Source of the DNA: Patescibacteria group bacterium
Lineage (GTDB): Bacteria; Patescibacteriota; Gracilibacteria; UBA1369
Length of the DNA stretch: 36,533 nt
Assembly: GCA_018825335.1 (NCBI GenBank)
Contig: JAHJEW010000098.1
Span: forward strand, 1-36,533
Direction of reading: 5' to 3'
The notes under the pieces are model-generated. The model saw only the letters and a program-made list of their open reading frames with translations. It was not told the DNA's origin and did no database searches. Positions 8,857 to 36,499 of the stretch are shown here, in pieces. Position numbers and translations under genes: made by a program. How positions within the stretch are numbered: the stretch's first letter is position 1; every line of letters starts with the position of its first letter.

Positions 8857-11526
8857 TTATGTTGTTGATTGCGGTTCTTCCGTAGTTTGCGGCTGGACTT
8901 TTGCAATTCCCTCTTTAAGGAGGTTGCCGAATTCCGCGTAGTTTGTAAGGTGGACGCCGTAGTCGGTTTTACTTGTGCCTACAAGATCGGGGCGGAGTTT
9001 GCCGGGAGTATTTTGGTCCTGGAAGACCTGATGGGTTTGAATTACTTCGTCCGGGCCTTCCGGTGTACCGGCCTGTTTTTTGATCCAGTCATTAAGTGCT
9101 GTCCATTTTTGGATGAGTTCATTTTCAAAATCTTCCGCGCTTTTGAGATTACTGTGCTTTTCGGCCCACGTTGCGCCCCATTTCTTTGAATATGATGAGT
9201 AAGCGAGCGGAGGAAGAGTTGAAGCAATGACTTTCATGCCTGCGGCTTTTGCCATTTTGTAGATTTTGGTCAGGTTTTCCTGTGTTTTTTCAATGGATAA
9301 GGGGTTCTGAGGGTCGCGACCAAACAGGTCGTTGCTGCCGCCGATAATAACCAGTGTGGCGCCGCGACAATCGTGAGATTTGGTCATTTTTTCAAAGGTA
9401 TGAACCATGGTGGAGGTAAGCTGACCGACAGATGGCTCTTTTTTTTGCGCTTCGGTTGCGTTTGGTCCAAGTTCAGGGTGAACGTGGGTAACGTCCATTC
9501 CTTTAAGCTGCGGGACGAAACCGTGGGAAAGCGAGTCCCCTATTACGAAAACTTTGCCGGTAGGTTTGATTTCTATTTGCTCCTGCGGGGTTTCGGATGC
9601 GGGGGCGGGTTCCGGCGGTTGTGGCTGTGATTCGGATTGGTATGATGGTGCGTAGGAAGGCGCCGGGGCGTAGGAGGTTTGTTGAGCTGGCGCGGCGGAG
9701 GGGCCGTAGCTACCGGATGGAGCTTGTGGCGCAGCTTCTTCCGTTGGGGCAGCGGAGGGTCTGCCGGCTGCCGCTATTTCGGTAGGGGCGATGTATGGCC
9801 GCGGGCCGCTTTGCGGGTGTTTTCTCTGGTATTCGCTGATTTCTTCCCTGGCCCAGTCGGGCACTTGGTACCTGCACTCCGGCCCGCGGGCTTGAGCGCT
9901 GAAAAGCGCTTTTCTAATATCTGCATAATCCGGGTTTGAAAGAACCTCGCTTAATTTGACGGGATTGCCGTCAATTATTGTGTCACCAATAAGGTCCGTT
10001 CCCTGCGCATAATCGTACCAACCGGGTTCGTGGGCGTGATCCCCAACTCCCTGAACAAAATCCCCAGACTGCGCCTTTCTATTTAATGATTCTTGTGAAT
10101 CCCGGCCTGGAGACGCGTGTATTCCTCCTCCAAAAATTATTTTTGTTGGATTGGGCGTATCCGGCATAAAGACGGTTTTGCGATGTCCAATTGTAAAATC
10201 GTCCGGCTTGATTCCGTTTTCCTGTAGCCAATTGAAGTACATTTCGCTTTCGGCGCGCGCGTAGGGCGCGGACTGCATTGCAGTTCCGTCTACGATGGTT
10301 TTGTCGCCTTGCTTTATTTCAAATGGTAATGCTCCTCCGGGATAATTTGCAGCTTTATCCTGTATTCGCGTGCCGTACCAGAACGGGGCTTTTTTGACGT
10401 TTGGATCGTTGTACAGGTGTCCGTAAAACTCGGAAGTTGGTAGATTGCCACCAAGGATATCGGCTATAGTCTGTGACATTTCGCCGTCCATTGATACGAT
10501 TGTTTCGTCGCCCGGAACCCCGAATCGGACCATGCCGTATAGCGGAATTTTGACCTCTTTGCCATTTACGGTGGTTGTATAGATTTTCGGCTTCATGCTG
10601 TCCGGAGAAAATGCTCCGGCAAGAGCCTGGCTTAGTATTAACCTCCTTTTTTCTTCGGGTGTTTGGCATTGTCTAAGAGCTTCATTGAACTGTGAACCGG
10701 TCATTGCCAGATCCGGATTTCTGCTTGGCCAATTGAGGCCGTAATCAGGAGTTTCTCCCGTCTTCTCCAGGTCACTGATTACTTCTTCGATCTTCTTTGG
10801 CCCTCCAATCGTGGAAAGCGCAACGTTTTTTGTCAGGCTTGCGCCGGTAAGTTTTTCCGCGTGCTCGATGATTTTTTTAACTGTTTCCGGGTCGTCCAAT
10901 TCTTTGGAATGATCCGCGCCCGGCGTTTCGTTTTGCATTATTAGTACAACCGGCTCGCCGTTTTTGCGCATCTGCTCAACGTATTCCAGCATTTTGGCGT
11001 TTTCGGGGTTGCTATCATCGGATGCGCTGCCGGGGGCGCGTTTCAGGACGATTACTTTTGGCTGTTTTTTTTGACCTTTTTCGTCCAGATATTTTTTATC
11101 GGCAAGGTCGGGCATGTTGATCTGGACTTCACTTTTTAGGCCTTTACCCTCAAGTCCCGGAACAGCGTCGAGTTTGTAGAACTGGCATTTTTCACCTTTC
11201 TTTTCGAATTGCTGTTCGATTTTCTGTTCGTATTTGCTTAACTCCTGTTCTTTTTTTCTTTTTTCTTCGGCTTTGCGCTTTTCTTCCTCGATTCTTTTTT
11301 GTTCTTCGGCACGGCGTTTGGCGGCCTGCGCCTGGCGTTGTTTTTCGGCGGCCAGGTTTTCCGCGTCAATCGGGACACCTGTCTGCCCCGGTTTTTCTTT
11401 GTCTTCAGGCTTTTCCTTTGTTTCCGGCTTCTCGGCACCACCGAAGTCCGGGATTTTGCCGTAGTGACAAAAGCTTCCAGACAGCAGGAAATTCTTTCGG
11501 CTGAGTTTTGGACAAGATAATTTCAT
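8857..11526 (-). CDS. Large protein with C-terminal SGNH/GDSL-hydrolase-like domain
   Basis: 889 aa; C-terminal block I KVFVIGDSLSHGF, block III VIIGGSNDLFG, DYGVH near the end. N-terminal KR/E-rich coiled coil; Pro/Ala/Ser linker before the SGNH domain; central part unassigned. Confidence 0.75.
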   Translation of the reverse strand: MKLSCPKLSRKNFLLSGSFCHYGKIPDFGGAEKPETKEKPEDKEKPGQTGVPIDAENLAAEKQRQAQAAKRRAEEQKRIEEEKRKAEEKRKKEQELSKYEQKIEQQFEKKGEKCQFYKLDAVPGLEGKGLKSEVQINMPDLADKKYLDEKGQKKQPKVIVLKRAPGSASDDSNPENAKMLEYVEQMRKNGEPVVLIMQNETPGADHSKELDDPETVKKIIEHAEKLTGASLTKNVALSTIGGPKKIEEVISDLEKTGETPDYGLNWPSRNPDLAMTGSQFNEALRQCQTPEEKRRLILSQALAGAFSPDSMKPKIYTTTVNGKEVKIPLYGMVRFGVPGDETIVSMDGEMSQTIADILGGNLPTSEFYGHLYNDPNVKKAPFWYGTRIQDKAANYPGGALPFEIKQGDKTIVDGTAMQSAPYARAESEMYFNWLQENGIKPDDFTIGHRKTVFMPDTPNPTKIIFGGGIHASPGRDSQESLNRKAQSGDFVQGVGDHAHEPGWYDYAQGTDLIGDTIIDGNPVKLSEVLSNPDYADIRKALFSAQARGPECRYQVPDWAREEISEYQRKHPQSGPRPYIAPTEIAAAGRPSAAPTEEAAPQAPSGSYGPSAAPAQQTSYAPAPSYAPSYQSESQPQPPEPAPASETPQEQIEIKPTGKVFVIGDSLSHGFVPQLKGMDVTHVHPELGPNATEAQKKEPSVGQLTSTMVHTFEKMTKSHDCRGATLVIIGGSNDLFGRDPQNPLSIEKTQENLTKIYKMAKAAGMKVIASTLPPLAYSSYSKKWGATWAEKHSNLKSAEDFENELIQKWTALNDWIKKQAGTPEGPDEVIQTHQVFQDQNTPGKLRPDLVGTSKTDYGVHLTNYAEFGNLLKEGIAKVQPQTTEEPQSTT

Positions 11527-25673: not shown

Positions 25674-25699
25674 AGCGCACTTCGTTTTGCTGCGTGCGT
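25674..25699. repeat. 26-bp repeat copy 1 (AGCGCACTTCGTTTTGCTGCGTGCGT), left of island 1
   Basis: 22/26 identity by eye to 32221-32246. Confidence 0.5.
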
Positions 25700-25712: not shown

Positions 25713-25728
25713 AAAACTCACTTACGAA
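25713..25728 (+). repeat. Left arm of perfect 16-bp inverted repeat flanking GC-rich island 1
   Basis: AAAACTCACTTACGAA; exact reverse complement at 26938-26953. Confidence 0.9.
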
Positions 25729-25739
25729 TGGTGAGGGTG

Positions 25740-25772
25740 GCGGACCTGGTTCTTTGTGGGAACCAGGTCCGC
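25740..25772 (-). terminator. Hairpin downstream of the island 1 lipoprotein gene
   Basis: Perfect 13-bp stem GCGGACCTGGTTC-tttgtgg-GAACCAGGTCCGC; no T-tract. Confidence 0.5.
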
Positions 25773-25828
25773 TCCTCGGTTGTGGCGCTCGACCCCCGGT
25801 TTTTAGGCCGGGGGGAGCGCAGGGGGGG

Positions 25829-26659
25829 TCAGTTGGTCCCGAGGGGGATCACGCTGACCGTTGCTGCGCCGCCGCCGAAGGCGACGGCGCAGCCCGACGC
25901 CGACCCGAAGTCGGCGTAGGTGGGGGCTCCGGCCGCCCCCGAGAAGGTGGCATGGCCGGTGTCCCAGGACACCGCGCCAACCACCGCACCGACGACCTTG
26001 ACGGTCTCGGCGCACTTTCCGGCGGCGAACACCACGGATGCGACCGTGGTGTTCGCCGTGGTGGACATCTTTAGGGTTTGGCACCCCCAAAGTCCACTGG
26101 TTGCCCCGTCGGCGTAGGCGTCGCTGACGGCGAGGTAGGCATTGGGATCGTTCGAGGCCGGGGGGCCGTTGAACGAGCACAGTTGGTAGTTGGTGACAGT
26201 GCCACCCGTGCTACCGCCGGTGCCGCCAGTGCCGGTGCTGCCCGTGTTGCAGGCGAACTGCGCCGTGGTGTGCTCGCACACCATCTCGCAGATGCCCGTC
26301 GAGGTCTCGAAGACCTCGCAACCGACGCCCGGGGCGCCCTGGGCGCCCGCGGCACCCGGCGGGAGCTTGATGCTCTCGCCGTTTTCGCATGCCACGACGA
26401 TGGTTCCATCGTCGAGCTGCGTTGCCGTGGACACCACACAGGTGCCCTTGGCGACGTCGGTGCTGGACAGGACGTCGCCGTCCTCGTCCCTGCACACGCG
26501 CATCGAATTGCCATTCTCGTCCTGCTCGTACGAGCAGGACGAGAAGTCGTCGCCGCAGCCCGCGAGGGCCGCAACGACGAGCAGGAGGGTGGTGATGAGG
26601 GCCGCCTTGGCGGCCCTCGCCTTTTTTGCCCCGCAGGGGGGGCGGGTGGCATTCGCCAT
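25829..26659 (-). CDS. GC-rich lipoprotein of unknown function (island 1)
   Basis: Start ATG at 26659 behind SD AAGGAG; MANATRPPCGAKKARAAKAALITTLLLVVAALAGC lipobox, then a Cys-containing region and Gly/Thr linker (GSTGTGGTGGSTGGT). The track start at 26956 lies in the inverted repeat and lacks an SD. Confidence 0.75.
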   Translation of the reverse strand: MANATRPPCGAKKARAAKAALITTLLLVVAALAGCGDDFSSCSYEQDENGNSMRVCRDEDGDVLSSTDVAKGTCVVSTATQLDDGTIVVACENGESIKLPPGAAGAQGAPGVGCEVFETSTGICEMVCEHTTAQFACNTGSTGTGGTGGSTGGTVTNYQLCSFNGPPASNDPNAYLAVSDAYADGATSGLWGCQTLKMSTTANTTVASVVFAAGKCAETVKVVGAVVGAVSWDTGHATFSGAAGAPTYADFGSASGCAVAFGGGAATVSVIPLGTN

Positions 26660-26937
26660 TGTCTCAATCTCCTTCCCCTGGGAGGGGGAACACCGCGCAC
26701 TATGCGCAGTGGCGCCCCTCCGTTCGGGGCACGCAGCTACCAGGGATGATCGGGTCGGACGGCTGCTAGAGCGCGTCGGGTCCGGATCCGTGGCAGGTGT
26801 GTGCCCCGAGGAGGGAAAGGGTTTGGGAGTGTGGCTTATCGCCACAAAAAAGGGAAATTGTGTTTGCTTTCGCAAACTTCGCTGCCAGTTTTTATTAGCG
26901 TGCTGGCGCACGCGGGATCTCGCTTGCGCAAAATCTG

Positions 26938-26953
26938 TTCGTAAGTGAGTTTT
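26938..26953 (-). repeat. Right arm of perfect 16-bp inverted repeat flanking island 1
   Basis: TTCGTAAGTGAGTTTT. Confidence 0.9.
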
Positions 26954-27314
26954 CAAAGGTCAATGCGCCCGAAGGATTTGACTCCGAAAGGGCGACTTTT
27001 CTTATTTATCCACGTTTTGCTGCTCATAAAAAATGGTAAAGCTTTATGGGACGCGGCATAGGCCGTGGCCCGATAAAACCTTATTGATCCGTTTTTTTGA
27101 GCATGTGAGTAAACAAGGAGAGGAATGTATCATATTCCCCTATTTCTGTCAAGCCACATCATTGTTGGATGATGAGCCGGGCAGCTGCCTGTTTAAATGC
27201 GAGGCAGGCGGGAATATTACAATGATTTTTGAGGATAAGTCAAAATATTGTTTTAGGTTTGTCAAAAGGTTTTTGCAGGTAGGGATCGTTTGCCAAAATT
27301 TTTTGCATGGGAAA

Positions 27315-27341
27315 GGGCCGCTTCATGTTATGAAGCGGCCC
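27315..27341. terminator. Strong hairpin, possible terminator, at the left side of island 2
   Basis: Perfect 12-bp stem GGGCCGCTTCAT-gtt-ATGAAGCGGCCC. Confidence 0.45.
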
Positions 27342-27427
27342 ATCGGCGCACCTTGTTGTCCCGAATTAACGGGGCGTTAAGGGCGCCATTCCCGATCTTT
27401 TTTGCTTTGGCTTACCTCCTTTCCGGC

Positions 27428-27455
27428 GGGCGAGGGAGCTTTCACTCCCCCGCCC
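27428..27455 (-). terminator. Hairpin downstream of the Cys-rich gene
   Basis: GGGCGAGGGAG-ctttca-CTCCCCCGCCC. The single mismatch becomes a G-U wobble in the minus-strand RNA; no T-tract. Confidence 0.4.
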
Positions 27456-27531
27456 CATGCTCACGGTTGCCGTCCGCGTGGTCTTTTTTCTCACAGCTGG
27501 CTGGGCTGTAAGTCACCCGGTAGCGGTAGTG

Positions 27532-30500
27532 CTACCAGGTGATACGGATGGCGTAGTACGTGCATCCGTTCAGTGAGACGGTGTACGTGGTGTTGACCAC
27601 GTTTACCGTCGCGGGGGTGTACCCGCTCCCCTGCACCTCGAGGGTGCTGCCGCCCCAGGTGGGGGGCAGGGAGTAGGGCGAGCACCGCCGCTCCACGGAC
27701 ACCGGTGCCACCGACGAGGTGAACACCAAGAGTCCGTTGTTCTCCCAGGCCATTGCCCGGTCGCCGGCGGCGTAGGTGCCGCTGACGTTTCCGGACGAGC
27801 AGTTCCAGTCATCGGAAGTGCTCGCCGCGGGGTCGATCGTCGTTCCTCCGGAGAAGAACTTGACCGACTTGTAGCAAGAGTCACCGATAATGGTGACGCC
27901 CGCCGGGCCCTGCGGCTGCTGTTGCAGCGCGCAGATGCCCCCGACGCAGGTCTCACCTACGAGGCATGCGTTGCCGCACGCTCCGCAGTTGGCCTCGTCG
28001 CTCGCGAGGTCGGCGCAGGCGCCCCCGCAATTGGTGTACCCTTGCGAGCACGCCGTTTTGCAGGCGCCCTGGTCGCAGACCAGGCCTTGCCCACAGACCG
28101 CGCAGGCGGGTCCGCAGGCCAATGGATCTTGCATGATGCTTTCGCACCATAGATCCAGGTCGCAGTCCAGCGTGCCTTGGGAGCACGACAGGACACACGA
28201 CCCGCCCGAGCAGACTTGGTCGTTGACGCATGCGTTGCCGCACGCGCCGCAGTTCTGCTCGTCGCTCGACAGGTAGACGCAACTGCCGGAGCAGTTGGTC
28301 TGGTTTAGACCGCACGTGCTCTTGCACGCGCCGTCCGTGCACACCTGCCCTTGCGGACAGATGGCGCAACCCGGACCGCAGGCGGTCGGGTCACTCAGGA
28401 TATGCTCGCAGACGAAGTCTGCATCGCAGTCCTGTTCGCCTTGCTTGCACGACACCACGCAGGTGCCGCCCGAGCAAAGCTGGTCTCCGATGCATGCGTT
28501 TCCGCATGCACCACAGTTGTCCTCGTCCGAGGACACGTAGACGCAACTGCCGGAGCAGTTGGTCTGGTTCGGACCGCACGTGCTCTTGCACGCGCCGTCC
28601 GTGCACACCTGCCCTTGCGGACAGATGGCGCAACCCGGACCGCAGGCGGTCGGGTCGCTTTGGATCTGCTCGCAGACATTGTCTGTGTCGCAGTCCATCA
28701 TCTGCTCCGGACACGAGAGCACGCAGCTCCCGCCGGAACAGATCTGGTCTCCGACGCATGCGTTGCCGCACGCGCCGCAGTTGTCCTCGTCGGAGGACAG
28801 GTAGACGCAACTGTTGGAACAGTTGGTCTGCCCTGTGGCGCACACTGACTTGCAGGCGCCACTCGAGCACACCTGCCCCTGCGGGCAGATGGCGCAACCC
28901 GGACCGCAGGCGGTCGGGTCGCTTTGGATCTGCTCGCAGACATTGTCTGTGTCGCAGTCCATCATCTGCTCCGGACACGAGAGCACGCAGCTCCCGCCGG
29001 AACAGACCTGATCTCCGACGCATACGTTGCCGCACGCGCCGCAGTTCAGGGGGTCGCTGCCCAAGTGTACGCATGCGAGTCCGCATACGCTTAGCCCTTG
29101 AGAGCAACCATAGGTGCAGGTGCCGTTGTCGCACACCTGCCCCGGTCCGCACACATTGCAGCCGAGGCCGCAATGTAGCGGATCCGACCAGATGTAGTCA
29201 CACACTTGGTCGTTGCCGCAGTCGAGCGTGCCGGTGCTGCAATGCAGCTGGCACGTCCCGCCGAGGCACTGCTGGTCGCCGACACATTGAGTGCCGCACG
29301 ACCCGCAATTGGCTTCGTCGGTCTTGAAGTCGACGCAGCCGCCATTGCACAGCGACATGCCTTGTGAGCAGTTCGCCACGCATTGGCTCTTCTGGCAGAC
29401 CTGTCCCTGCGCGCAAACGGCGCAGAGAGGTCCGCAGTGCGACGACGTCGAAGTGATGTCGTCGCACAGGTTGTCCGCGTCGCAATCGGCCTGCCCCGTG
29501 GGACAGGCGAGCGCGCAGACGCTGGCCAGACACTGCTGGTCGCCCGGGCATACCGTGCCGCAGGCTCCGCAGTTGGCCTCGTCGGAGATTGTGTTTACAC
29601 ACTGACCTCCGCACTCCGTCTGCCCTTGCGAACAGACGGTCTTGCAGGCACCGAGGTCGCAGACCTCATTGACTGCGCAGTCCGTACAGGACGGCCCGCA
29701 GAACGCTGGATCCTGCATGATGTCATCGCAGATCCAGTCGTTGTCGCAATCCTTGGTGCCTTGCGGGCAGAAGAGCCCGCAGATTCCAAGGCTGCACTCC
29801 TGCTGGCCCGTGCACGCGGTGGTGCAGGAGCCGCAGGCCACCTCGGACGACTGCGTGTTGACGCAGCCGTTGAGGTTGGCGCAGTACTGGAAACCGCTTA
29901 CGCAGTTATCCAGGCATGTGCCGTTTTGACACACCTGCGTGCCGGAGCATTGGGCGCACAGAGGCCCGCAATGCGACCCGGACGAGGTAGTGTCGATGCA
30001 CTGGCCGTTCTTGTTACAGTCGGCCGTGCCCTGCGCGCAGCTGACGGGCTCACAGAACCCGCCAACGCACGCCTCCGTGATAGCGCATTTGCTACCACAA
30101 CCTCCGCAGTTGAGCTTGTCGCTCATGACTGCGGCACAGAAGTCCTGGCCGCCGCTCTGGCAGACCATTTCTCCTTCTGCGCAGTCCAGCACGCAGGCGC
30201 TGAACGCGCACGTCTCCCCTCCGGCGCAGGCGTTTCCGCATGCGCCGCAGTGGAGGGGGTCAGTGGCGAGATCCGCGCATGCGTTGCCGCACGCCGTCTC
30301 GCCCGACTTACAGTTCGAGTAGCAGGTGCCTCCCGAGCAAAACTCATTGAGGCCGCATGCGTTTCCGCACTGGCCGCAATGAGCGGGACTGCTAAGGAGG
30401 TTTGCGCAACCTCCATTACAGTCCACTGTCCCCGAGGGACAGTTGTCCGCGCACTCGCCCGAGGCGCAGACCTGCCCATCCGCGCACGGATCACAGTCCG

Positions 30501-30807
30501 TGCCGCAGTGGGCGACATTGGACCAGATGTCTACGCAGGACTCTGATCCGTCGCACACGGCGGTGCCGAGGGCGCAGTTCGCGCCGCCCGATCCGCCGGT
30601 GCCGCCGGCAGCGTTTCCGCCACCGCCGGTCTGGGACCCGCCGTTTCCGGTGGAGCCCCCGGTGGCCGTTGAGCCACCACCACATGGGGGGCGACTGCCA
30701 TCGAGGCATGCAACCTCCCCGGGAGCGACCTCCGCCTGGGGGTCGCTCCAACATCCCGCCGTCAGCGCGAAAATCGCGCAGGCGGCGGCCACTTTTTGCC
30801 ATTTCAT
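27532..30807 (-). CDS. Large cysteine-rich repeat lipoprotein (~20 Cys modules) with C-terminal non-repeat domain
   Basis: SD AAAGGAG before ATG 30807; MKWQKVAAACAIFALTAGC lipobox; Gly/Ser/Thr-rich linker; ~20 modules of CxxGxxxC...CGACGNAC..C..G.C type. Confidence 0.85.
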   Translation of the reverse strand: MKWQKVAAACAIFALTAGCWSDPQAEVAPGEVACLDGSRPPCGGGSTATGGSTGNGGSQTGGGGNAAGGTGGSGGANCALGTAVCDGSESCVDIWSNVAHCGTDCDPCADGQVCASGECADNCPSGTVDCNGGCANLLSSPAHCGQCGNACGLNEFCSGGTCYSNCKSGETACGNACADLATDPLHCGACGNACAGGETCAFSACVLDCAEGEMVCQSGGQDFCAAVMSDKLNCGGCGSKCAITEACVGGFCEPVSCAQGTADCNKNGQCIDTTSSGSHCGPLCAQCSGTQVCQNGTCLDNCVSGFQYCANLNGCVNTQSSEVACGSCTTACTGQQECSLGICGLFCPQGTKDCDNDWICDDIMQDPAFCGPSCTDCAVNEVCDLGACKTVCSQGQTECGGQCVNTISDEANCGACGTVCPGDQQCLASVCALACPTGQADCDADNLCDDITSTSSHCGPLCAVCAQGQVCQKSQCVANCSQGMSLCNGGCVDFKTDEANCGSCGTQCVGDQQCLGGTCQLHCSTGTLDCGNDQVCDYIWSDPLHCGLGCNVCGPGQVCDNGTCTYGCSQGLSVCGLACVHLGSDPLNCGACGNVCVGDQVCSGGSCVLSCPEQMMDCDTDNVCEQIQSDPTACGPGCAICPQGQVCSSGACKSVCATGQTNCSNSCVYLSSDEDNCGACGNACVGDQICSGGSCVLSCPEQMMDCDTDNVCEQIQSDPTACGPGCAICPQGQVCTDGACKSTCGPNQTNCSGSCVYVSSDEDNCGACGNACIGDQLCSGGTCVVSCKQGEQDCDADFVCEHILSDPTACGPGCAICPQGQVCTDGACKSTCGLNQTNCSGSCVYLSSDEQNCGACGNACVNDQVCSGGSCVLSCSQGTLDCDLDLWCESIMQDPLACGPACAVCGQGLVCDQGACKTACSQGYTNCGGACADLASDEANCGACGNACLVGETCVGGICALQQQPQGPAGVTIIGDSCYKSVKFFSGGTTIDPAASTSDDWNCSSGNVSGTYAAGDRAMAWENNGLLVFTSSVAPVSVERRCSPYSLPPTWGGSTLEVQGSGYTPATVNVVNTTYTVSLNGCTYYAIRITW
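27925..30576 (-). repeat. Array of alternating ~43- and ~45-aa Cys modules (88-aa super-repeat); ~264-bp near-identical DNA repeats in the central part
   Basis: GGCGGTCGGGTC junctions at 28381, 28645 and 28909 are exactly 264 bp apart, with long near-identical stretches around them. Confidence 0.85.
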
Positions 30808-30881
30808 GGCATTCTCCTTTCGTTGTGGCACAGGGGGCGGCCCGGCGAAATCCGGATATCGCCCCCCTTAGCCGCCTGCAC

Positions 30882-31970
30882 TCAGATGCGCAAGCCCACC
30901 ATGATGGGCTTGAACTGGGGCTCGATGCCCCAACTCTTGTCCTGGCCGTCGTAGCCAGGCACCCTGTTATACGGCGTGGCGTTGACCACACCGCAAACCC
31001 CTCCCCCGATGGAGAGGTTCGGAGCCGGGTGGAACAGGACGTTCGCACACGGCTCGACCACGAACACGTAGTTCGTGGCCTGGTTCGCGAACTCGACCGT
31101 CTTGGTCGAGCTCTGAGAAAGGAACGTGTCCGGGTAGGACACGACCTCGAGACCGAGCTGGGCTCCGAGGTTTCCCTCGAGCCAGCTCAGGGGGGCCCAC
31201 GAAACGTAGGGTCCCGCGGTGAAGGAGAACTTCTCCTCCACCGAGTCTGCGTTTACTGGCTGGTTTCCGTCGAACGTCCACACGTTGGTGTGGACGTAGT
31301 TCATCGTCGCGCCCAGCTGGGCGAAGCGGTGAAGGCGGACGAGGATGTCCGCCCCGACTCCGACCGGCACGTTGGTCGCGTGCTGGTCGTTGAGCCCCAG
31401 AAGGGGGCTCATGAGGAACTGCGCCCGCTGCGACAGCGGGCTCCAGCCCTTGAGCTGGCGACCGTAGTCGTCCAGCTTCTTGTCGACGTCCTTGAGGACG
31501 TCGACCTTGGCTTCCGCGACCTCCTCGTGGGTCGCGATCTCCGCCGGAGGCGGAGGAGCCGGCAGGACCGTGAGGTCCCACGCGGCCACCAGCTCGTTCC
31601 CGTACCTGACAGTCAGGTTCGGAAACGTTCCGGCCTGCGCCGTCCAGGCGATGCCGAACTGGGCCACACCATGGAGGTGTGGCTCGTCGGTGTAGGACTT
31701 GCAGCCCAACACCTCCTCGCCCAGGCCCTGCGGCCTGATGAGGTTCTCCTCCGTCCAGGTGGAGCACTCCAACTGGGCGATGAAGAGCACGGAGAGGCGC
31801 TTCCCCTCCGTGGCCACGGCCTTGCGGCCGCTCCTAGAGTCAATCCCCTCCAAGGAGGGGACAAAGAAGGGCACGTCGGCCTTTGCCGACGCCGCAGGTT
31901 GACCTTTTGCCCATCCCGCGACCATCAAGGTCGCGGCGACGAGCGCCCAACTCGTGAAGCGTCGCATCAT
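30882..31970 (-). CDS. Exported beta-barrel-like protein of unknown function (island 2)
   Basis: Signal peptide MMRRFTSWALVAATLMVAGWAKGQPAASA; alternating hydrophobic/aromatic strands (GPYVSWAPLSWLEGNLGAQLGLEVVSYP; PIMVGLRI C-terminus); SD-like AGGAAAGGA upstream. Confidence 0.6.
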   Translation of the reverse strand: MMRRFTSWALVAATLMVAGWAKGQPAASAKADVPFFVPSLEGIDSRSGRKAVATEGKRLSVLFIAQLECSTWTEENLIRPQGLGEEVLGCKSYTDEPHLHGVAQFGIAWTAQAGTFPNLTVRYGNELVAAWDLTVLPAPPPPAEIATHEEVAEAKVDVLKDVDKKLDDYGRQLKGWSPLSQRAQFLMSPLLGLNDQHATNVPVGVGADILVRLHRFAQLGATMNYVHTNVWTFDGNQPVNADSVEEKFSFTAGPYVSWAPLSWLEGNLGAQLGLEVVSYPDTFLSQSSTKTVEFANQATNYVFVVEPCANVLFHPAPNLSIGGGVCGVVNATPYNRVPGYDGQDKSWGIEPQFKPIMVGLRI

Positions 31971-32157
31971 TGCTTAGCTTCCTTTCCTCTTGCTGGTCGC
32001 GGTTTCGGGCCCGGAGGGGCCATAACGCACCATGCGTTATAGTCCCCACCGCGCCGCGGGACTCACTCCATCTTTTTGTATCGGCCAATAAAAAAAATCG
32101 GCATACTCAAAAAAACGGGGCGAGTCCCACGGCAAAAAAAATATGATTCTAAAATAT

Positions 32158-32183
32158 AGCGCACTTTGCTCCGCTTCGTGCGT
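32158..32183. repeat. 26-bp repeat copy 2
   Basis: AGCGCACTTTGCTCCGCTTCGTGCGT. Confidence 0.65.
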
Positions 32184-32220
32184 GGGGCGTTTTTCGCTTC
32201 TCTCACTTCGTTCGCTCCAC

Positions 32221-32246
32221 AGCGCACTTCGCTCCGCTTCGTGCGT
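32221..32246. repeat. 26-bp repeat copy 3
   Basis: AGCGCACTTCGCTCCGCTTCGTGCGT; 25/26 identity to copy 2. Confidence 0.65.
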
Positions 32247-32542
32247 AGTAAGCCAAATTGTTAAAGATCGCCAACTCCACCTTCTATCGCAGTGGCCGGT
32301 CGTCAAAGCATGCCTTTCCGCCCTCCGCTGGTGCGGATGGCTCCAAGTGCACTGATTTTGGCCCAATTTCCACTAGACAGGCAGGATTAAAGAATTGGAT
32401 GAGAGTTTAACTATATTGCGGACTTTTGTCAACCTTTTTACCGCTTTGCAGCGGTTTTGGAAAGATCGGCAAAAGCCGCAATCAGTAAACGTTAAATTTA
32501 ATGCTTCTTTTGGGCTTCCATTACAGGGCCGGCGGCGTAATA

Positions 32543-33706
32543 ATGGCATCGGACATTATCACTAACAGCAAAGAAATGAAAAAACGGCCGCGGATTGTTA
32601 TTTGCGGGAACTACGGAGCCACGAATCTTGGCGACGAAGCGATTCTGGACGGGATTCTTTCGCTGGTCAGAAGATCCATCCCAAACGCGGACATTACGGT
32701 TTTAGGCGCCAATCCGGCCGAGACGGCGGATCTTCACGGAGTAAAGAGCCTTTTTTTGCTTCCGGCGGGGGCGCGTTCGCTTTGGCGCGGGGTTTCGGGC
32801 GGCACTATTTGGCGCACTCTGGACGCAATTCGCAAGGCTGATTTGTTTATTCTTGGCGGCGGAGGGCTTTTTACGGATGAGAAGTTTATGGCTGTTTTGA
32901 TCTGGTCACTGCAGGCGCGGATCGCGCGGCTTTTTAAAGTGCCGATTTTCTGCCTGGGGCAGAGCGTAGGGCCTCTTCGGACTTTTTTCGGGCGGATGAT
33001 GACGGCGGGGGTTTTTAAACATTCTGCGGAAATTACCGTGCGCGATGAAGCTTCCCGGGATTTGCTTGTTCGTCTTGGGATCGATGACGCGCTTGTGCTG
33101 GCCGATCCGGCGTTTGTCCTTGCCGCGCCCGAGCCGCTGCCCGAGCGCACAGAGCCTTACGTGGTTTTGTCGGTGCGTCCGTGGAAAATTATGGGCGGCG
33201 AGAGCTTTCGGGATAAGCTTTTGTGTCAGGTTTTAGCGAAATTCGTTGATCGTCTCTGGATGGAGAATGGCCTAAAGACCATTATGGTGCCTTTTCAGGT
33301 CATGGTCGATAACGACGCGAACGAGCTGGAGCGCATTTATGATCTTCTGGAAGACAAAAAGGCCGCGGAGATTTTCTCCTACAGCAGCGATTACAAGAAG
33401 GTTATGGAGCTTATAGCGCGTTCAACGGCCGTGGTTGGGATGAGGCTTCACTCTCTCATTTTCGCGTCGATTTGCCACACGCCGTTTCTGGCGCTATCGT
33501 ACAGCGAAAAAGTGCGAAGTTTTTGCGCGCAGGTCGGCATGGAGGACTTTATTCTTGGTCTTGATGAAGTGGACCTTGCTGCGCTTATGGTCAGGTTTGA
33601 ACGAATTTTGTCTGAACGGGATGCGCTGGTTTTGCGGCTGGACAACAGGGTTTTGCATTTGCGGGCAATGGCGCTTGAGCATGAGGGGATTTTAGAGAAG
33701 TTTTAA
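32543..33706 (+). CDS. csaB: Polysaccharide pyruvyl transferase CsaB
   Basis: IVICGNYGATNLGDEAILDGILSLVRR, LFILGGGGLFTD, FCLGQSVGPLRTFFGR, ITVRDEASRDLLVRLGI, GMRLHSLIFASICHTPFLALSYSEKVRSFCAQVGM. Start uncertain (track ATG 32501). Confidence 0.87.
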   Translation: MASDIITNSKEMKKRPRIVICGNYGATNLGDEAILDGILSLVRRSIPNADITVLGANPAETADLHGVKSLFLLPAGARSLWRGVSGGTIWRTLDAIRKADLFILGGGGLFTDEKFMAVLIWSLQARIARLFKVPIFCLGQSVGPLRTFFGRMMTAGVFKHSAEITVRDEASRDLLVRLGIDDALVLADPAFVLAAPEPLPERTEPYVVLSVRPWKIMGGESFRDKLLCQVLAKFVDRLWMENGLKTIMVPFQVMVDNDANELERIYDLLEDKKAAEIFSYSSDYKKVMELIARSTAVVGMRLHSLIFASICHTPFLALSYSEKVRSFCAQVGMEDFILGLDEVDLAALMVRFERILSERDALVLRLDNRVLHLRAMALEHEGILEKF

Positions 33707-33760
33707 TAGGTTTTTATTTTTTGATAATAATGTTCCGTTACAATGTCGGTACATTTTTGG

Positions 33761-33816
33761 TTGATTAATTTATTATATAAGTTTACTATACTATATGAAA
33801 GTATTACTAAGTAAAC
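33761..33816 (+). promoter_or_regulatory. Toxin-antitoxin promoter with overlapping inverted-repeat operator
   Basis: TTGATT (33761)-N17-TACTAT (33784). The inverted repeat GTTTACtATAC...GTATtactaaGTAAAC spans 33781-33816. Confidence 0.55.
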
Positions 33817-33821
33817 CTTCA

Positions 33822-34082
33822 ATGGCTACAATTTCTTTTAAGGCCGACGATAGTTTTAAGAAAAAACTTGATGCTCTTGCGGAGAAAAAGGGCATTAATA
33901 CTTCCGCTTTTATCAAGCTGATTCTTACTAAAGAGGTCGGCTGTGAGCTTGCAGAGATGACTGAAAACGGGTTAACGGTTGCGGAGGAGCTGGAAATTTT
34001 GGACTCTGTGAAAAACGACAAGGTTCTTGGACCTTTCTCAAATACCAATGATCTATTGAATGCTTTGAAAGATTCAAAATGA
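33822..34082 (+). CDS. RelB/DinJ-like ribbon-helix-helix antitoxin
   Basis: MATISFKADDSFKKKLDALAEKKGINTSAFIKLILTKEV; overlaps downstream toxin by ATGA. ATG 33822 preferred over 33795, which falls inside the operator. Confidence 0.78.
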   Translation: MATISFKADDSFKKKLDALAEKKGINTSAFIKLILTKEVGCELAEMTENGLTVAEELEILDSVKNDKVLGPFSNTNDLLNALKDSK

Positions 34083-34336
34083 GGATTTTTTTCACGTCGG
34101 GCTTTCAGAAAAAATTTATTAAGCTGCCACTGAATATTCAGGAGCAATTTGGCGTCAGAATTGATCTTTTTATAGAGGACTCATCGCATCCATCCCTAAA
34201 GGTTCATCCACTGAAGGGAAATCTGGCGGGACTAAGGGCTTTTTCGGTTAGCGGTGATTGTCGTGTAATTTATCGTTTATTGGATCGCGATAGTATTGAG
34301 CTAATAAGCATTGGCACACATAGTCAGATTTATTGA
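34079..34336 (+). CDS. RelE/YafQ/ParE-superfamily toxin
   Basis: MRIFFTSGFQKKFIKLPLNIQEQ...HPSLKVHPLKGNLAGLRAFSVSGDCRVIYRLLDRDSIELISIGTHSQIY. Confidence 0.8.
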   Translation: MRIFFTSGFQKKFIKLPLNIQEQFGVRIDLFIEDSSHPSLKVHPLKGNLAGLRAFSVSGDCRVIYRLLDRDSIELISIGTHSQIY

Positions 34337-34540
34337 TAGGTTTTAATGGCCCGGGCCAAGTACACCAATGGTGGCAAGCCATAAAACGGTTGTCGTTCGG
34401 CGAATTTTCAGTTTTGATTTCGTTTGACTTTTGCGCCCTATTCTTGTAATGCTATCTATCCGTCACTATTGTGGCGACGATTTTTCGCGGGTCGAAGGGT
34501 CGTTGCCCGGTGGCAGCGATCTTTGATAGCCCGCATTTTG

Positions 34541-34558
34541 GGGCCGCCAAGGCGGCCC
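34541..34558 (+). promoter_or_regulatory. Hairpin immediately upstream of SD of the island 3 lipoprotein
   Basis: GGGCCGCC-AA-GGCGGCCC, three bases before GGAGG (34562-34566). Confidence 0.55.
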
Positions 34559-34570
34559 ATTGGAGGTAGT

Positions 34571-35131
34571 ATGTTTCGTTTTTCCCATTTGTTTCGGGTC
34601 GCGTTGGCGACCCTTGCCCTGTGCCTTCTGGGCACAGGGTGCGCGGACGCCACGCCGGTCGCGAAGGCGCCGGCGGTCGCGCCGCCGACGCCCCCCGTGA
34701 AGACGGAGGGCAGGCCTGCATTACCACCCGCCCCCGCGGTCGTGCTGGCGCAGGTCAAGTCATCACCGGGCAACATGCCCGATGACATATACTCGGACAC
34801 GCTGATCCGGGTGGTGGCGTGGGCAGCTGTCGGCCCGCAGAACCTGCAGGTCGATGCGGTCACCGACCTGCCGTTGGGCGGCACAATCGTGCTGCTCAGC
34901 GAGGATCCGAACGTCGTCCTCACAACGGACGACGTCAAGCTGGCGGAGGGGCCGATGCGCCTCCGCCAGACCCAGAGCGGGGTTCAGGCGATCCTGAACC
35001 CCACCGAGGCGGAGCTGAAGAAGCTCCGCGGTGGCGAGCGGTTGCCGCTCGTCTTCCTTTTGGGAGACACCCTCTCCCCCATGGGGGAGAAGAAGTTCCC
35101 CCTCCACGTGGGGCTTGCGCGGCTGGACTGA
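34571..35131 (+). CDS. GC-rich lipoprotein of unknown function (island 3)
   Basis: SD GGAGG before ATG 34571; MFRFSHLFRVALATLALCLLGTGC lipobox; Pro/Ala-rich linker. Confidence 0.75.
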   Translation: MFRFSHLFRVALATLALCLLGTGCADATPVAKAPAVAPPTPPVKTEGRPALPPAPAVVLAQVKSSPGNMPDDIYSDTLIRVVAWAAVGPQNLQVDAVTDLPLGGTIVLLSEDPNVVLTTDDVKLAEGPMRLRQTQSGVQAILNPTEAELKKLRGGERLPLVFLLGDTLSPMGEKKFPLHVGLARLD

Positions 35132-35161
35132 GAAGTCCGGCCGCCGCCCCGCGACTGGAAA

Positions 35162-35189
35162 GGGGCGGCGTGCTTACGCACGCCGCCCC
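35162..35189 (+). terminator. Hairpin downstream of island 3 lipoprotein
   Basis: Perfect 12-bp stem GGGGCGGCGTGC-ttac-GCACGCCGCCCC; no T-tract. Confidence 0.5.
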
Positions 35190-35229
35190 CATGATTGCGA
35201 TTCATCACACAAAAAAAATGCGGGCTATC

Positions 35230-35892
35230 TTATCCAAACATTTCCGTTTGTCTGCTTAAGCGTGCAACCGGCTCGTACGTCCTGCGGTGAATTTCGCATA
35301 TCCCGTGCTCTTTTATGCCTTTCTGGTGCCTTTTTGTGCCGTACCCCATATTTTCATCGAAACCATAAAGTGGGAATTTTTTTGCGTATTTTTTCATTAT
35401 TTTGTCTCTTTCTACTTTTGCAATTATTGACGCGCAGGCTACTATTTTTACTTTTTCATCGCCCTTAATTACGCTCACATACGGGATTGGCATGTTGAAT
35501 TTGTCGCGACCGTCAATTATGAGCAGGTCGGGGGGCCGACGGGATTTGTCTTTTTTCAATGCTTCAAGCGCACGGGTGAATGCGCGGTTTGTGGCTTTTA
35601 TCAGCCCCAATTCATCAATCTCTTCGTGCGTGGCCGATCCAACACCAAAAAATACCTTTGTTTTTAATTTTCTGTAAATTTCCTCGCGTTTTTCCGCCGT
35701 CAGAGCTTTCGAATTTTTCAGTCCTTTAATGCGCAGATCTTTTCCCCTGAAAACGACCACCGCGGCCACTACCGGCCCCGCCCAAGGACCGCGGCCAGCC
35801 TCGTCCATCCCGCAAAAGACACGGCTCCCACCGATGTCCGGCCGCTTTACAATCGCTTCCTCCAGCACCTTTTTTATCGACAAAAAAGCCAT
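35230..35892 (-). CDS. rnhB: Ribonuclease HII
   Basis: VFCGMDEAGRGPWAGPVVAAVV, LIIDGRDKFNMPIP, ACASIIAKVERDKIM, YGFDENMGYGTKRHQKGI. Confidence 0.93.
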   Translation of the reverse strand: MAFLSIKKVLEEAIVKRPDIGGSRVFCGMDEAGRGPWAGPVVAAVVVFRGKDLRIKGLKNSKALTAEKREEIYRKLKTKVFFGVGSATHEEIDELGLIKATNRAFTRALEALKKDKSRRPPDLLIIDGRDKFNMPIPYVSVIKGDEKVKIVACASIIAKVERDKIMKKYAKKFPLYGFDENMGYGTKRHQKGIKEHGICEIHRRTYEPVARLSRQTEMFG

Positions 35893-35953: not shown

Positions 35954-36499
35954 CTACTCTTCTTTCGCCGGTTCTTCGGGGGCCTTTGCGGGAGCTTCTT
36001 CAGCGGCTGCGACGGGTGCTTCTTCCACAGTCGCACCGCCCGCCTCTGCGGTTACCACCTCTTCTGCTTCTGATCCGGCCTCCTCTACAGCTTCCTCTTC
36101 CTCGTGCATGCCTTTCTTTTTCCTATGTGTCTCATCTTTTTCTGTAAGTCCGAGTTTGGCGCTTAATCGCTTGGACATTCCCGACGCGCCTCTGATGAAA
36201 TTAAGCTTTGCCCTGCGAATGCCGAATGTTTTCTTAACTTCTATTTTTGCAATGAGCGGTGAATTGACGGGGAAAATCTTTTCCACAGCAATCCCCTGCA
36301 CCACCTTGCGCACAGTGAACGTTTTACTTGCCACGTGCCCGGAGTTCAATCCTACAACCATACCTTCAAAAACCTGGATTCTTTCTTTTTCCCCCTCCTT
36401 GATTTTCTGATGTACGCGCACCTGGTATCCCGGTCTTAAAACCGGCATTTTCTTGTTTATAAACTTTTTTTCGATTTCCTGAATCAGTAAATTAGACAT
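35954..36499 (-). CDS. rplS: 50S ribosomal protein L19 with long acidic C-terminal extension
   Basis: VLRPGYQVRVHQKIKEGEKERIQVFEGMVVGL...TFTVRKVVQGIAVEKIFPVNSPLIAKIEV...RRAKLNFIRG, then a Glu/Ala-rich tail. ATG 36499 preferred over TTG 36520. Confidence 0.93.
   Translation of the reverse strand: MSNLLIQEIEKKFINKKMPVLRPGYQVRVHQKIKEGEKERIQVFEGMVVGLNSGHVASKTFTVRKVVQGIAVEKIFPVNSPLIAKIEVKKTFGIRRAKLNFIRGASGMSKRLSAKLGLTEKDETHRKKKGMHEEEEAVEEAGSEAEEVVTAEAGGATVEEAPVAAAEEAPAKAPEEPAKEE

Follow-up and report, generated by a model that had tools for sequence, protein, structure and literature searches.

GC islands are routinely taken as foreign DNA, and three of them lying close together in one bacterial contig raise the question of whether they have been acquired from elsewhere or are native to their host, and what accounts for their composition. 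The window analysed here, i.e., the whole stretch of 36,533 nucleotides, belongs to a Candidatus Peregrinibacteria MAG (1.15 Mb in 134 contigs, 96% complete, ∼46% GC). Sliding GC together with a two-state segmentation, which was run blind over ∼1.06 Mb of the host genome, has placed the islands at 25730-26815 (island 1, 68.7% GC), 27423-32060 (island 2, 64.9% GC) and 34486-35190 (island 3, 67.8% GC).

The islands and their conserved locus

Island 1 contains the coding region of a 276-aa lipoprotein (25829-26659, minus strand; lipobox LAGC). Two coding regions have been found on the same strand in island 2, one for a 1091-aa Cys-rich lipoprotein with 13 STIG1 repeat stretches (27532-30807) and one for a 362-aa protein composed of a signal peptide, a beta domain, a coiled coil and an OmpA-like 8-strand barrel (30882-31970), while island 3 encodes a 186-aa lipoprotein on the plus strand (34571-35131). 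Between islands 2 and 3 lie a csaB-like polysaccharide pyruvyl transferase gene (32576-33706, plus strand; PF04230), which is a conserved neighbour, and a bystander pair of RHH antitoxin and YafQ/ParE-type toxin (33795-34336, plus strand); island 3 is followed by the conserved neighbour rnhB (35230-35892, minus strand) and then by rplS (35954-36499). The names of these neighbours, the abruptness of the three islands and the completeness of their four genes, each with an SD-like sequence, a signal peptide and a downstream hairpin, had been given in an initial annotation of the window and have all been confirmed, as has the lipobox in three of the four proteins (those of islands 1 and 3 and the STIG1 protein), the 362-aa protein having a plain signal peptide. 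Two features had been overlooked: islands 1 and 3 are enclosed by perfect inverted repeats of 15-16 nt, and the coding regions are dense in hairpins.

Elsewhere in the genome, the segmentation has revealed three further islands, L043 10102-10663, L118 1103-1803 and L080 1-673, the last of which is interrupted by the contig end. The islands of L080, L118 and L043 are likewise GC-rich and hairpin-dense, and their coding content comprises one TM protein, one lipoprotein and a pair of tiny ORFs that overlap each other. Two of them are adjoined by genes or remnants that by eye resemble HNH endonucleases (L118 2124-3227, for which no Pfam match has been found, and L043 ∼10860-11300). The L118 island is also adjoined by an SLH-domain surface protein (L118 31-999). 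The cell-wall anchor for SLH domains is the product of csaB-type enzymes, and the position of this protein is thus consistent with a surface-layer theme.

The same annotation had read the locus as a hotspot of repeated acquisition of export-directed genes. Their clustering beside csaB-rnhB-rplS has been borne out, but recent repeated capture has not, as like genes occupy the same locus in other Peregrinibacteria genomes. A scan based on a csaB alignment has yielded 29 loci, mostly from Candidatus Peregrinibacteria or Gracilibacteria, and GC-rich secreted genes of like kind stand beside csaB in L182, L184, L185, L186, L191, L195 and L196. The locus, with an OmpA-like protein, a Cys-rich lipoprotein, further lipoproteins, csaB, rnhB and rplS, carries GC-rich islands in no fewer than seven additional genomes from independent assemblies. 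The island proteins of L191 match those of L195 with 57% and 71-74% identity, the core neighbours with 57-80%, and the island genes retain a GC3 of 0.56-0.75 vs 0.31-0.45 for core genes. Since the island proteins are about as diverged as their core neighbours with GC3 still high, both recent horizontal capture and an assembly artefact are poor explanations, and the former has been rejected. The latter, a chimera in which a GC-rich myxobacterium has been joined to a Peregrinibacteria contig during assembly or binning, might be suggested by the abrupt GC steps and the MAG origin; it is refuted by the synteny in independent assemblies, and with island genes that also fold unlike GC-rich myxobacterial genes its probability is negligible. 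A phage or plasmid origin has been rejected as well, as island 1 DNA has given no match among phages and P0003 none among plasmids, and no shared integrase-type site with direct repeats has been seen at the junctions. L195 itself is labelled as a Deltaproteobacteria bacterium of ∼3.4 Mb; as its csaB locus is typical of Peregrinibacteria, the bin is probably mixed or mislabelled.

The Myxococcota flavour ascribed earlier to the island proteins is supported by their modules. The STIG1 protein (P0002) belongs to the Stig1 repeat family (PF04885, 4e-53, 178 bits vs a cut-off of 24.1, over the 13 stretches), and its sole plasmid match is to Sandaracinus (35%). The Cys-rich slot varies by genome, being filled by STIG1 in the window, DUF4215 in L196 and MopE in L185. 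Large Cys-rich extracellular proteins with a weak likeness to Myxococcus Cys-rich repeats have been described for Peribacteria (PMC4736985), and agree with the island proteins in lineage and protein type; the passages of that paper retrieved by term search are silent on GC islands, RNA structure and closing repeats. For the 362-aa protein, the predicted model places an 8-strand barrel of OmpA/OmpX type at the C-terminus, with a pLDDT of about 80 in most barrel blocks within a model that is weak as a whole (pLDDT 60); Foldseek has matched the barrel to OmpA, Ail and NspA with a probability of 1.00 and a TMt of about 0.6. A barrel protein of this kind, with signal peptide and coiled coil, is kept in all seven of the relatives L182, L184, L185, L186, L191, L195 and L196. 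Omp85/BamA (PF01103) has been found in 0 of 21 genomes, comprising the host and its relatives, with controls positive in 7 of 14. If the predicted fold is right, the standard BAM machine could therefore not insert the barrel in the cell's own envelope, and the protein might act in the outer membrane of a partner cell or insert via another route.

Hairpin-dense coding regions

Compared with synonymous shuffles, in which protein and codon usage are kept, the host's island genes have been found to gain 11-21 kcal/mol of stability per 120 nt, at z -5 to -22. For island 1, which has a GC3 of 0.87, the sense-strand dMFE is -13.4 kcal per 120 nt with z from -7 to -14; the STIG1 gene reaches z -22 and the 362-aa gene z -12, and dMFE is -11.0 for island 3. 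The mean excess per 120 nt amounts to -15.0 kcal in the host's islands and -5.0 in the relatives vs -1.1 (sd 1.2) in 22 core CDS, corresponding to p 1.4e-7 overall and 3.7e-6 for the relatives alone. Dinucleotide shuffles of pieces of islands 1, 2 and 3 have given z -7.9, -7.2 and -8.4, respectively, vs -0.09 for csaB, which is unstructured. In a genome scan corrected for composition, the islands deviate by -3.5 sd on average and the remaining windows with GC>0.58 by -0.2. Furthermore, folding is normal (z -3.5 to +1.6) in 16 Sandaracinus genes of high GC content, among which is a relative of the Cys-rich protein. GC-richness or codon usage alone has thus been rejected as the cause of the structure by both kinds of shuffle and by the Sandaracinus controls. 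Conversely, the island 3-type genes of L182 and L186 are GC-rich yet show z about 0 against synonymous shuffles; GC and folding are therefore partly separable, and structure explains the GC content only in part.

The strand on which the structure resides bears on its cause. In the relatives, nearly all of the excess helical pairs belong to the sense strand and ∼17% of pairs are G.U, which points to selection acting at the RNA level. In the host's own genome, sense and antisense strands are similarly structured, stems are near-perfect Watson-Crick and G.U pairs are depleted, and a cause at the DNA level is possible there. The palindromes could accordingly be a DNA-level trait, for instance hairpins made perfect through template-switch repair or retained for a single-stranded DNA stage, with RNA folding as a by-product; against the mostly sense-strand, G.U-containing excess of the relatives and the sense bias that the host's own STIG1 and L118 genes display as well, we consider this quite improbable. 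When L191 is compared with L195, individual coding-region base pairs show no more than weak conservation (z 2-3), which has led us to discard exact conservation of pairs, and it seems to be overall foldedness that is kept. The islands resemble in this respect the genome-scale ordered RNA structure (GORS) of RNA viruses, in which coding RNA likewise folds far beyond synonymous or dinucleotide shuffles through overall foldedness instead of fixed pairs, and the island coding regions are indeed more stable than shuffled controls along their length. Unlike GORS, the predicted folding here is restricted to a small number of bacterial chromosomal genes for surface proteins. An Rfam search has given no match within the islands.

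Complementary arms round the single-gene units

Islands 1 and 3 are flanked by perfect inverted repeats of 16 and 15 nt. In island 1 (minus strand), the 5' arm AAAACTCACTTACGAA at 26938-26953 is complementary in 16/16 positions to the 3' arm TTCGTAAGTGAGTTTT at 25713-25728, forming a candidate closing stem; an extra T and CC follow, giving the U-tract UUUUUCC. The 5' arm overlaps the conserved 5' motif GACCTTTGAAAACTCACT (26944-26961, minus strand), with a cross-genus consensus of about GAYCWTTGAAAACTCRC. In island 3 (plus strand), the 5' arm GATAGCCCGCATTTT at 34525-34539 matches the 3' arm AAAATGCGGGCTATC at 35215-35229 in 15/15 positions, the latter abutting the rnhB stop codon. Inverted repeats of at least 15 nt with a spacing of 0.3-7 kb are few genome-wide, and three of them surround DNA of 67% GC, namely islands 1 and 3 and that of L043; one of the two longest among them, a 27-nt repeat (L048), is the processing stem round the 16S rRNA. 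The L118 island has an 18-nt pair of arms with one G.U, and arms have also been identified round small lipoprotein units of L182, L184, L185, L186, L191 and L196, amounting in total to 10 single-gene units in 7 genomes with complementary arms of 14-22 nt. By comparison, random 14-mers have found a partner of at least 13/14 in 2 of 3000 trials, and a 14-nt chance repeat has occurred in one of eight control genes. Round most STIG1/OmpA-like operons a closing stem is absent or weak, and for the two-gene island 2 the candidate arms at 27393-27415 and 32248-32270 (both minus strand) are not significant (p about 0.08). A motif model trained on these units has detected no additional unit with a partner in the host genome.

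The arms combine a common outer with a unit-specific inner part. Most units share the outer motif GAAAACTCRC; the 5' arm starts with GAAAAC in 7 of 10, usually in a longer context near the consensus, with a GATA variant in island 3 and L182 and a deviating L118. The inner positions are paired in 6.0/6 cases in true pairs vs 3.1/6 in swapped arms (permutation p<1e-5). Beyond the 3' arm, most units have a tract rich in pyrimidines or U. A clean U-tract is lacking at the arms of island 3 and L182, and the arms of different genera have a motif in common; insertion into the loop of an existing terminator has therefore been rejected. In full-length folds the arms pair in all 10 units, as expected from such long complementarity.

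An outer motif common to units with unrelated cargo, the presence of units at other genomic places (L043, L118) and the Myxococcota-style modules would agree with a different origin, close to that proposed in the initial annotation, in which small mobile cassettes with secreted-protein genes would be bounded by the arms as terminal inverted repeats and the GC content would stem from foreign donors. The enclosed lipoproteins are, indeed, mostly non-homologous between genera, and an exchange of cargo among the units is therefore possible. However, the four units of the host possess four distinct inner arms, each perfectly matching itself, inspection of flanks and ORFs has disclosed no target-site duplication and no transposase inside, and the locus is constant across many genera, while foreign GC-rich genes such as those of Sandaracinus are not hairpin-dense. 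Furthermore, the motif extends beyond the arm on the 5' side only and the U-rich tract follows on the 3' side only, a polarity more in keeping with a transcription unit than with a transposon. Taken together, mobile cassettes appear unlikely.

A proposed reading: folded messages of native surface-protein genes

We rather favour the reading, which we hold to be fairly probable, that the islands are native Peregrinibacteria transcription units for surface proteins whose mRNAs are selected to fold, those of single genes being clamped end to end. The hairpin excess, the sense bias in the relatives, the unit-specific arm complementarity and the conservation of the locus are shown by the sequences. 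Synonymous codon choice would fill the coding regions with local hairpins, with high GC going along. In the single-gene lipoprotein units, the 5' and 3' arms, both of which would lie inside the mRNA, would pair into a stem that closes the whole transcript ahead of a U-rich 3' end. Stem and hairpins may hinder nucleases and slow ribosomes, and the outcome could be long-lived, slowly translated messages suiting the export of large disulfide-rich proteins. The benefit is probably nuclease resistance, slow translation for export, or both.

Partial precedents are known for the closing stem. In the icaR mRNA of Staphylococcus aureus, the 5' and 3' ends pair into a double-stranded region (PMC3868564), and the island units also have complementary ends, which would pair likewise. 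In icaR, a short motif pairs with the Shine-Dalgarno region, whereas the arms described here comprise 14-22 nt, lie outside the gene, surround many unrelated genes and show matched changes. Processing stems of precursor rRNA are similarly formed by long inverted repeats round highly structured RNA, as with the 27-nt stem of the host's own 16S; the RNA enclosed by the arms of the islands differs from these in being protein-coding. Among the open-access papers searched, the combination of folded surface-protein mRNAs with closing stems has not been found for bacteria. One may tentatively, and with some doubt, postulate a new class of bacterial mRNA, in which a hairpin-saturated coding region is joined to a motif-bearing end-to-end stem, reserved for the surface proteins of a lineage that is ultrasmall and probably depends on a host, with messages that might be unusually long-lived or even exported. 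The family-wide island considered here is better tied to RNA folding than to foreign DNA, and RNA folding would be a second cause for sharp GC steps; in this way, a streamlined cell may control how long the mRNAs of its surface proteins last or how fast they are translated.

Repeats have also been noticed in DNA of lower GC content. L095 64-800, a low-GC intergenic repeat region, folds strongly (z to -7) and contains an 18-nt inverted repeat; neither a long ORF nor a match in Rfam has been found there. In the window, the short quasi-palindrome AGCGCACTTCGCTCCGCTTCGTGCGT recurs at 25674, 32158 and 32221, in AT-rich intergenic DNA close to the islands.
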